64,000 nt of DNA from Balneolaceae bacterium (GTDB lineage: Bacteria > Bacteroidota > Rhodothermia > Balneolales > Balneolaceae), in the NCBI GenBank assembly GCA_034521495.1, contig JAXHMK010000015.1:1-64000 (forward strand). Direction: 5' to 3'. Positions 4,626-48,853 of the stretch are shown here, piece by piece. The notes beneath the pieces are model-generated. The model searched no databases. It was not told where the DNA came from and worked only from the letters and a program-made list of their open reading frames with translations. Every line of letters begins with the position of its first letter. The first letter of the stretch is position 1. The translations under genes were made by a program, and so were the position numbers.

Positions 4626-5660
4626 ATGATGAAAATTACAATTATATGGCGTTTTATTGTTGGCATCGATATCTCAAAAAAACAGTTGGACTGCTATTTG
4701 TTGGATCGAAAAACCGGCGGAGGCTATGAGTGTCAGGTTCCAAATACCTGCGAGGGATTTGAGCAACTGGCCAGCTGGTTGGCCGATCACGAGGCCGATC
4801 CGTCCCAGACAAAGCTCATCAGTGAGCATACCGGACGCTATGGGGAGCATCTGCTGCGGTGGACCACAACCAACCAGTGGGCGCATGCGGTCGTAAAAAC
4901 CACGGCGCTGAACAAAGTCGGCAACGAGCACCATCGCAAGACCGATGCCGTTGACGCCGAAGACCTGGCAGACTACGGGGTTCGCTACAGCGACGAAATT
5001 TCGCTGACGAGGGCCCCAAAACCGGCCATAGGGCAGATAAAGCGCCTTCAGGCCGAACGACGTGCGATGGTGGATCGGCGGGCCGCTTTGAGGAGTAAAC
5101 TCACCGAAGCCGACATCCACGACGCCGACATGGAGCGTCTTACGGGCATGTGGTCCCAGCAAATCGCCCTGCTCACCGAGCATATCACTGAGATCGAAGC
5201 CCGCATCAAAGAGCTGATCAATGAGGACACGGCTATAAAGAATCGGTATCAGATGATGCGCAGCGCACCCGGAATAGGAAAGGTACTGGGACCTTTATGG
5301 ATAAGCCTGTTCGCTGGCCAGCAGACCCTGGATGCTCGCAAGATTTCTTCCCGCTTCGGGTTTGCTCCACACCCGTACCAATCCGGCAGCTCGGTGAAAC
5401 GCACCGACTATAGTAGCGGATTTGGCAATTCTGAAGTCAGGCGGGTGATGCATCAAGTAGCCCTGAGCGTCAAAACCCATTACCCGCATTACCGGGAGTA
5501 TTACGAGAAAAAACGGGCCGAAGGAAAAGAGCATCTGTTGGTGATCAATAATATTATAAATAAATTGATTCGGCTGTACTGCGCCATGTGGAATAACCGC
5601 GCAGAATACGATCCCGACTACATTCAAAAAAATAAACACAAATGGAAAAAATCCGCTTAA
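4626..5660 (+). CDS. IS110-family transposase (DEDD/serine recombinase)
   Basis: 344 residues. The N-terminal RuvC-like DEDD domain shows Asp15 in GIDISKK, Glu67 in ISEHTGRYG, and Asp107 and Asp110 in KTDAVDAEDLA. A coiled middle (about 135-205) follows, then the C-terminal transposase_20 region with APGIGKV (214-220) and PYQSGSS (about 250-256), which holds the candidate catalytic serine. All named motifs are present and the length is normal, so it may be active. It would work with the bridge RNA encoded just upstream. The start at 4626 is the first ATG. An initiation further in would remove residues ahead of the first Asp but not the fold. Confidence 0.93.
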   Translation: MMKITIIWRFIVGIDISKKQLDCYLLDRKTGGGYECQVPNTCEGFEQLASWLADHEADPSQTKLISEHTGRYGEHLLRWTTTNQWAHAVVKTTALNKVGNEHHRKTDAVDAEDLADYGVRYSDEISLTRAPKPAIGQIKRLQAERRAMVDRRAALRSKLTEADIHDADMERLTGMWSQQIALLTEHITEIEARIKELINEDTAIKNRYQMMRSAPGIGKVLGPLWISLFAGQQTLDARKISSRFGFAPHPYQSGSSVKRTDYSSGFGNSEVRRVMHQVALSVKTHYPHYREYYEKKRAEGKEHLLVINNIINKLIRLYCAMWNNRAEYDPDYIQKNKHKWKKSA

Positions 5661-20289: not shown

Positions 20290-20730
20290 CTATTTCAAAA
20301 AAGTATCGTATTGGAGATAGAGAGGCGGGAAATGTTCGAGGGCAACAGCAAAATAATCTTCATAGAGGAACTCATCCGGGGAGGTAACCATGTATTGAAA
20401 TCCAATACGAGATAGTATCACAGCGGATGATTCGGCAGTTGGTACTCTGAACTGATTGTTGGTTACAGAAGTATCTACCGAACAGGCACATATTTGAACT
20501 CCTTCGCAGTCGTGATGATTTTTGTGAGTTGCTTCATGATCAGCCCGATCTGAAATGCAACAGTCGTGAGAATCACCCATCATTTCGTGATGATTCATCT
20601 CCATCATACAAAAATCCACAAGCTGTTTGGCTTGCAGTGCAGACGGTAATAATAATCCGATTACCAGCAGAAGAGCTGCTGATTTTGTAAGGATTTTATA
20701 TGGATAAGATTTTCTTTTCACAACTTTCAA
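20290..20730 (-). CDS. Exported His/Met/Cys-rich protein at the head of the cus operon
   Basis: 146 residues. A signal peptide with a Lys/Arg-rich start and hydrophobic core (SAALLLVIGLLLPSALQA) precedes a stretch dense in metal ligands: CMMEMNHHEMMGDSHDCC, then HEATHKNHHDCEG and CACS. The C-terminal 70 residues lack such ligands and end PPLYLQYDTFLK. No family was recognised. Similar small ligand-rich proteins often precede cusCBA-like operons in Bacteroidota and are thought to bind Cu or Ag in the periplasm; that role is inferred from composition and context. Its upstream region ends at a MITE (20771). Confidence 0.65.
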   Translation of the reverse strand: MKVVKRKSYPYKILTKSAALLLVIGLLLPSALQAKQLVDFCMMEMNHHEMMGDSHDCCISDRADHEATHKNHHDCEGVQICACSVDTSVTNNQFRVPTAESSAVILSRIGFQYMVTSPDEFLYEDYFAVALEHFPPLYLQYDTFLK

Positions 20731-20758
20731 AATACAAAAAATTCAGAAAAAGTAATAT

Positions 20759-21121
20759 CTATTTAAAATCGAGGACTTACCCCATTTTTTGATGTAAAAG
20801 TATTACAAGTTCTATGTTCTTTTGGCTTGACCCAAAAGGAACCAAAAGGTCAAGGCTGTGAATCCTTGGCGGCGGACACGAGTTCACCGTGGAATCCTTT
20901 CAATGGTCCACATCGCTTATAGCCCTTTAATTCCGTTTCTCGCCGGTATGAAAGGATTCTTCTCACGGTTCAATCGGTGTCCTTTTTTCCGCCAACGATT
21001 CAAGGCCAACTATTCTTCCAAAATCATTATTTCCACTTAAAGGATATTATAAAATACTGTTTATATGGATCTTAAATATTATAGTTTGAAAATATTGGGG
21101 TAACTTCTCCTATTTAAAATC
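20759..21121. mobile_element. MITE with 12-bp target duplication (family R2), copy A
   Basis: The element at 20771-21109 is flanked by identical 12-base direct repeats CTATTTAAAATC (20759-20770 and 21110-21121). The ends are inverted: left GAGGACTTACCCC, right GGGGTAACTTCTC. Inside, a long hairpin pairs about 20857-20908 with 20950-21012 (for example ATCCTTTCA with TGAAAGGAT). It has no coding potential and no transposase. Confidence 0.85.
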
Positions 21122-21124
21122 AGG

Positions 21125-21877
21125 CTAATAATTTAATAAATTCTCGATTTTAGGCTGCATCGCTTCTGCCCAGAGCTGATACCCATATTCATTCGGATGA
21201 AGCAGATCGGGCATGATCTCTTCAGACAAAACCCCATCTTCATCCAGGAATGTATCGTTGATATTTAGAAAGTGAACGCGTTCGCCATCTGCAAATTGCT
21301 CGATTCTATTATTAATTTGATTGTTCAGTTGACGCAATTCACCATCGGGAGAAGCTTCTCTCGGGAAGATAGCTAACAGCAGTACTTTTGTGTCGGGCAA
21401 GCGGTTCTTTAACTCATCCAAAATCATCTCAATTCCTCTGGCTGTGCACTCGGGCGGGTCTTGCCGGTGGCCGGTATTATTTGTGCCGATCATTAGAATT
21501 GCCAGCTCTGGATCAATTCCATCTATTTCCCCATGCTGGAATCTCCACAACACGTTTTCTGTCCGGTCTCCGCTGAAGCCGATATTGTATCCACCAAAGT
21601 CGGCGTAATATTCATCCCAAACTTCTTTGCCTGTGTTTTCCCATCCGTGAGTGATGGAGTTTCCAATAAAGAGCAACCTTGCATCTTCTCGTCCTTCTTC
21701 TTCCAATTTGGCTTCATGGCGGGGCATCCACCATTCCACAGCCCAATCTTCCTGCAGAGTTGCAGGAGTTAAAGCGGGTGAATCAGCCGGACAGGTTTGG
21801 GCCGATACTTGCGTGCAGGTTAGTATGAATAGAAAAAATAAAAATGCCGGCAAACGGTTTGAGATATTCTCTTTCAT
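21125..21877 (-). CDS. Secreted SGNH/GDSL-family hydrolase
   Basis: About 250 residues from the ATG at 21877, preferred because it starts directly with a signal peptide (MKENISNRLPAFLFFLFIL...VSAQ); the longer frame adds 14 residues before it. SGNH blocks are all present: the FIGNSITHGW nucleophile Ser74, the FSGDRTENV glycine, GTNN with Asn134, and the DLLHPN dyad with Asp224 and His227. This resembles the platelet-activating-factor acetylhydrolase-like branch, which often removes acetyl groups from carbohydrates. It is exported to the periplasm or outside; the natural substrate is unknown. A MITE sits four bases beyond its stop. Confidence 0.85.
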   Translation of the reverse strand: MKENISNRLPAFLFFLFILTCTQVSAQTCPADSPALTPATLQEDWAVEWWMPRHEAKLEEEGREDARLLFIGNSITHGWENTGKEVWDEYYADFGGYNIGFSGDRTENVLWRFQHGEIDGIDPELAILMIGTNNTGHRQDPPECTARGIEMILDELKNRLPDTKVLLLAIFPREASPDGELRQLNNQINNRIEQFADGERVHFLNINDTFLDEDGVLSEEIMPDLLHPNEYGYQLWAEAMQPKIENLLNY

Positions 21878-47945: not shown

Positions 47946-48853
47946 AATTACTGCTGAGATGTTACCCCGAAAATTATTTTATTTGAACGATATGTGATAT
48001 AAAATTTATAGAAAATGCTTTAATAAAGTGGGATACCTTATTGTGGAGTTACCCCATTTTTTACTCCACCCTATAGAACCTAATCCCAAGTGCTCTGCTC
48101 GTCATTGTTCATCCGACATATATCACGTTTTGTGGTAGTCTCTTTTTTAATGCGAAAAAAGGACTACTACGCTAAAGCTTTGAAGACCAAGTGACGAAAA
48201 ACGCATGGGAATAGAGATGTTCACGGTCTATAGTTTTAAACTATGATTTGCTTTCACTTCTTTTTTGTCGTTTCTAACGGCTTTCCCGCTATTCCCGTAA
48301 CCTCTGAAGATCGATCATAGGTCTCCAATACATTCGGCCTTGAAGAATCTGTGGGAACAGGATGGATTGTGAAGCGCTGTGGCAGCCTTCGTTACCGGTG
48401 ATACACTTGATTCTACTTACAAACGAAATGGACCATTCGAAGGGTGCCGCGCTGAACAATCAGCCGCCACAGATTCTTCACAGCCGGGAGGTTTTGGATA
48501 CTTTTGCTGGTACAAAAGTATCAGGAAAGAAATGCTGTAGGGCTGTTTATGTTGTATCAAAGCACATTCGTTCTCTTTTTTCCAGTTTCCACTTGTAAAA
48601 TTCTACAATTTGTTGATACTATTTGGTTTATGAATTATTAAGTAAAAATTTCGGGGTAACTTCTGGATACCTTATTCCCTTGTTTCACCGCTCTGCTGTA
48701 AAACAAAATGCAGGCGGTGCTCTGCCCCACCGTGTATTGGCCTTATACGGGCAGCAGAGCAGCCCTGAATACCATCCCGGAGCAGACCATCGAAGAGAAC
48801 ATATTGCAGTTCGTCTTGCATTAGAAAATGGGATAACTCCACAATCGCTGCCA
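47946..48853. mobile_element. MITE (family R2), older outer copy X, in reverse orientation
   Basis: Ends AGATGTTACCCCGAAAATT (47958) and GGGATAACTCCA (to 48841) are the two R2 end types in reverse. Flanks CAATTACTGCTG (47946-47957) and CAATCGCTGCCA (48842-48853) match at 8 of 12 bases, and all four differences are transitions, as for an aged target duplication. Copy B splits it. Confidence 0.6.
48031..48676. mobile_element. MITE (family R2), copy B, nested in copy X
   Basis: The element at 48043-48664 is flanked by identical 12-base repeats GGATACCTTATT (48031-48042 and 48665-48676). Left end GTGGAGTTACCCCATTTTTT; right end ATTTCGGGGTAACTTCT. The last 80 bases resemble those of copy A (both have TTTCCACTT). 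The interior has inverted GAAGAATCTGTGG/CCACAGATTCTTC and no gene. Confidence 0.85.

Follow-up and report, generated by a model that had tools for sequence, protein, structure and literature searches.

A short segment of a Balneolaceae contig, with inverted ends, flanking direct repeats and no transposase gene, raises the question of whether it belongs to a mobile family and, if so, what moves it and what it carries. We studied it within the window, i.e. the whole 64,000-nucleotide stretch of DNA that was analysed, which is part of contig C15, and in the corresponding Balneolaceae genome, a 22-contig draft of 4.57 Mb that is 97.4% complete. A sequence-only reading had described two copies, A and B, with shared end motifs and perfect 12-base direct repeats, and both features were confirmed at the positions given here. 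Copy A (20771-21109, + strand) belongs to the main family (kind A), is 339 bp long, begins with GAGGACTTACCCC and terminates with GGGGTAACTTCTC. Its left terminal inverted repeat, GAGGACTTACCCC (20771-20783, + strand), is followed by a T run, its right terminal inverted repeat is GAGAAGTTACCCC (21097-21109, - strand), and the perfect 12-base target-site duplication CTATTTAAAATC lies at 20759-20770 and 21110-21121. Copy B (48043-48664, + strand) is a 622-bp element flanked by the perfect duplication GGATACCTTATT at 48031-48042 and 48665-48676. Both copies start with a TTACCCC-type end and finish with GGGGTAACTTCT. The interior of B differs from that of A and is also structured.

To determine the size of the family, we searched the genome for the ends. 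The whole inverted end comprises 13 bases, GAGRASTTACCCC, and occurs exactly 79 times, compared to once for the reversed control; the 12-mer AGAAGTTACCCC was found 38 times and its reversed control not at all. Copy A has 41 matches in the genome, from which more than 30 are full length (333-345 bp). Its two nearest relatives (98-99% identical) are located at unrelated sites with different flanks and have their own perfect 10-bp duplications, which points to recent movement. Copy B has three long relatives with 79-96% identity, among them C22:8782-9403 (96%) and C22:192532-193122 (86%). Further elements of 186, 195, 211, 235, 388-392, about 414 and about 725 bp are found behind the same ends. 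Several different interiors without coding capacity share one end type. The span between paired ends is 186-729 bp with no transposase gene inside, and the 339-622 bp between the ends of A and B are too short for an open frame of transposase size. In total, the genome carries at least 40 short, enzyme-less elements with 8-12 bases duplicated at their landing sites.

Next, the duplications were scored with the element ends fixed, using mismatched flank pairs as background. Target duplications were present in 34 of the 43 delimited copies, which belong to several kinds, compared to 2 of 1,806 mismatched flank pairs. They range from 8 to 12 bp and are mostly 9-10 bp long (8 bp in five copies, 9 in 12, 10 in 13, 11 in three and 12 in one), and the sites that were duplicated are rich in AT (29% GC, compared to 44% for the window). 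The 12 bases first noted are therefore correct for copy A and represent the upper limit, not a fixed length, of the family; for copy B, where the final base of the right end has changed, either 11 or 12 bases can be counted. Nine copies lack a clear duplication, perhaps through age or recombination, and these count against the transposon reading.

Copy B has inserted into an older element (47956-48842, GAGATGTTACCCC ... GGGATAACTCCAC) that belongs to the same end family. When B and one duplication were removed in silico, the joined flanks aligned through the junction with four uninterrupted elements (L135, L024, L134 and L089) in which the target region is present once. Judged by this alignment, these relatives represent a paralogous, not an orthologous, empty site for B. 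Together with the shared ends and the duplications, this supports the initial assignment to a non-autonomous transposon family. One of the four, L134 (C9:745075-746220), itself consists of two end-family elements placed head to tail, and the 8-base spacer between them, TGATTTAT, doubles as the duplication of the first element.

The two ends of the elements are consistently distinct: GAGGAC/GAGGAG-TTACCCC-ATTTTT on the left and GAGAAG-TTACCCC-GAAATTT on the right. In addition, right ends contain a subterminal motif, AAGTGGAAA, which in copy A lies at 21030-21038 (- strand), starting at position 72 from the right end, and in copy B at 48586-48594 (- strand), at the same distance. Among the 46 right ends carrying AAGTGGAAA, it begins at position 72 in 44, while the intervening sequence has diverged. 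This spaced pattern occurs at 43 places in the genome (control, 0) and also in a few relatives. At position 47-59 of the right end, a few representatives show an IHF-like match, which was not significant compared to shuffled sequences (37/500) and is only a hint.

We also searched for the ends in 92 genomes of the family and for the right-end layout in 128 genomes of the order. The same ends are present in several other Balneolaceae genomes with duplications of 8-11 bp, and all clear element pairs in these relatives are 182-383 bp long. Kind A is mostly 338-340 bp long in other Balneolaceae, with one exception of 330 and one of 383 bp. Its length and fold are kept between species at 66-77% identity, a degree of constraint beyond what a plain defective transposon requires. 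Neither the family ends nor the interior motif were found in the viral contigs and phages searched, and our literature searches returned nothing on either of them.

The structured interior of kind A was absent from the first sequence reading. From an alignment of 35 kind-A copies of this genome and relatives, a fold emerges in which a pseudoknot-like motif precedes a long hairpin. In copy A, the motif comprises 36 nt (20819-20854, + strand; CTTTTGG-CTTGAC-CCAAAAG-GAACCAAAA-GGTCAAG), and the long imperfect hairpin with many compensatory pairs extends over 20854-21007 (+ strand; outer arms 20854-20872 and 20989-21007). In general form, the motif has the stem CTTTTGN/NCAAAAG and a 6-nt loop, CTTGAN, pairing with a downstream NTCAAG. 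Over the 61 named pairs, 98.4% of cells were paired, compared to 39-54% in slid versions, a figure that is favoured by the structure having been derived from the same alignment; stronger evidence comes from the 19 of 61 pairs that changed on both sides, compared to 7.5 in shuffles. Copy A gave fold z-scores of -5.1 and -6.9 on the two strands.

The 36-nt motif was matched in 34 of 395 Bacteroidota genomes, with 0 control matches throughout, and both stems covary across this phylum. At positions left free by the pattern, stem 1 pairs in 57 of 59 distinct sequences (25.8 in shuffles) and the loop pairs with the downstream strand in 55 of 59 (36.5 in shuffles), where the 59 sequences are related to one another and the shuffle count is not a probability. 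The motif followed by the long hairpin was also found in Parabacteroides plasmids, in Aureibacter and in Ilyobacter (Fusobacteriota), and on sequence inspection the module lacks the transposon ends at several loci of relatives. Rfam gave no match up to E 1 for 20700-21200, and six other loci had no match at gathering score. At one locus (L253, G307:C1:3516500-3520500), four copies of motif and hairpin are arranged in one orientation with 309-485 bp spacing and adjoin two identical 65-aa open frames. Another genome harbours four near-identical motif copies in the same orientation within 10 kb (L255, G030:C4:257, 6143, 7243 and 9710).

It is quite possible, if short of probable, that the kind-A interior is an undescribed structured element, composed of an H-type pseudoknot-like motif and a long hairpin, that is dispersed as a repeat in Bacteroidota and Ilyobacter, acts as RNA or single-stranded DNA, and rides on cut-and-paste transposons in Balneolaceae. 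The two-sided changes, the high proportion of paired cells, the phylum-wide covariation and the z-scores favour the idea that the elements mainly carry a functional module of structured RNA or single-stranded DNA, with selection on this module, besides transposition, preserving the elements and their length. We consider this a possible but rather doubtful account. Members with the same ends of 186-235 bp and 414 bp, as well as B, have other or shortened interiors and yet show duplications, and neither a promoter nor a consistent gene neighbour was found for the module. Because both strands fold far better than shuffles, neither RNA nor a particular strand is established for A. Elements with different interiors move by way of shared ends, and for this reason we take the module to be cargo or a co-selected structured element, not part of the transposition ends.

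The sequence-only reading further predicted a helper element elsewhere. There is indeed no transposase inside the elements, and a search for one with these ends gave nothing in the genome, at its contig ends or, in the relatives covered, behind matching ends. Unpaired perfect ends on C4, C7, C8, C9, C10, C14, C18, C19 and C21 had no transposase in view, and for 32 open reading frames near unpaired ends, the 25 Pfam families listed, out of 61, did not include a transposase. At 39 of the 44 contig ends, no convincing element end was detected within 2.5 kb. Matches to the IS256 type (PF00872) were lacking in the genome, as were matches to the IS1 type (PF03400) in all 28 genus genomes. A 467-aa frame behind an end in L224/L242 was rejected, as by eye it resembles a Y-family DNA polymerase and not a transposase; the end at C4:217846 probably does not bound an element, given that a paralogous stretch at the start of C4 does not have it. 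In the window itself, an open frame at 4626-5660 resembles an IS110-type transposase, again judged by eye.

The duplications had been likened to those of some IS4-group elements, and the elements could be miniature derivatives of an IS4-family insertion sequence (e.g. IS231 or ISH8) mobilised by a resident IS4 transposase. The genome does contain 17 PF01609 (IS4/IS5-type) loci, and the 8-12 bp duplications found here lie within the 7-13 bp typical of the IS4 family and are similar to its values of around 10 bp (IS231 10-12, ISH8 10, IS4 10-13; PMC2266710). However, the ends of the IS4 subgroups are CAT/CA/CT/CW/-AATR/YT (PMC2266710), whereas those of the present family start with GAG, and none of the 17 loci is bounded by TTACCCC ends at both sides. 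The single PF01609 match beside a TTACCCC-type end (L182) adjoins a truncated kind-A copy. This copy (C10:15572-16436; L045, L182) is without its last 35 bases next to the PF01609 transposase gene and was perhaps truncated by the adjoining insertion sequence. Kinship with the IS4 group is therefore not supported, and an origin from this family is unlikely. A separate PF01609 element (L184, C21:176308) has perfect 16-bp ends, CTTATCATTACCC, and an 8-bp duplication; its ends are partly similar to those of the family (TTACCC) and not identical.

A further explanation is that the Y1 (RAYT/IS200-type) transposases of the genome, for which there are 13 loci, mobilise the interior motif as a REP-type sequence. 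In its favour, at some loci in relatives (L256-L258, G428) the motif is located at both ends of long palindromic stretches, forming BIME-like inverted pairs of hairpins. The motif was nevertheless absent from all 13 Y1 loci examined. To our knowledge, Y1 transposases make no target duplications, and they therefore cannot explain the finding for A and B, which makes this explanation highly improbable. Although AT-rich DNA commonly holds short two-copy repeats, the view that these are ordinary intergenic repeats with coincidental direct repeats can be set aside as having next to no probability, refuted by the excess of duplications over mismatched flanks and by the nested insertion with its joined empty site.

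We conclude that A and B very probably belong to a large, non-autonomous, MITE-like family of Balneolaceae DNA transposons, moved in trans by a probable DDE transposase and with kind A carrying a structured cargo. That the family is MITE-like, with its helper not found in the assembly, is well supported. Inverted ends with duplications of constant order are the usual signature of a DDE transposase, and the enzyme class proposed here rests on this analogy, because neither the genome nor its relatives yielded a transposase bounded by the ends of the family. In the proposed mechanism, a DDE-type transposase supplied in trans would bind the inverted ends, perhaps assisted by the subterminal motif AAGTGGAAA and a DNA-bending protein, and would excise or copy the element. 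The element would then be joined to target DNA cut with a stagger of about 9-10 bases, the repair of which would leave the direct repeats. The kind-A interior, whose strongly conserved fold is also present elsewhere in the absence of the ends, would travel as cargo. Autonomous relatives of MITEs are often lost, and their presence is not strictly required for membership. Since the helper is missing from the assembly, it has probably disappeared or is acquired occasionally with mobile DNA; in a 22-contig draft, there is also a small chance of a collapsed helper copy.

Transposons without a transposase are common. The A/B family is unusual in its rigid end architecture and in having no detectable helper despite its apparently recent movement. 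Its most unusual component is the structured module of kind A, with a fold kept by compensatory changes between species and, in its core motif, throughout a phylum; that the folded sequence also stands alone in many other Bacteroidota is the more unusual part of the finding. Should the cargo prove functional, the family would be a case of a structured repeat and a selfish transposon moving jointly, and the covarying motif would offer a new RNA or DNA structure, open to testing, in one of the major bacterial phyla.

Among known systems, REP/BIME sequences with RAYT resemble the interior in being dispersed hairpins that sometimes form inverted pairs, whereas the present motif is not next to the Y1 genes of this genome. 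REP systems, as far as we know, produce no target duplications. The BrickBuilt MITE of Porphyromonas gingivalis is, like the A/B family, short, non-coding and multi-copy, is bounded by terminal inverted repeats and presumably relies on a helper elsewhere, and it also has an unusual interior cargo (a minisatellite) and an end common to another MITE (PMC4596501). Its ends, however, correspond to those of IS5-type elements in the same genome, and its short duplications are irregular (PMC4596501). The A/B ends, on the other hand, match no transposon found, and duplications of 8-12 bp accompany most delimited copies. With the IS4 family, the A/B family shares a duplication of about one helical turn, but the end sequence differs and no IS4-type gene was found between A/B ends. 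The ends of IS231 start with CAT, and the cargo of its MIC231 cassettes is usually protein-coding. These cassettes (cited in PMC2266710) are similar to the A/B family in that the same ends enclose varied interiors, the helper acts in trans and the duplications are about 10-12 bp, as for IS231. In contrast, the A/B ends start with GAG and enclose, in kind A, a structured non-coding module.
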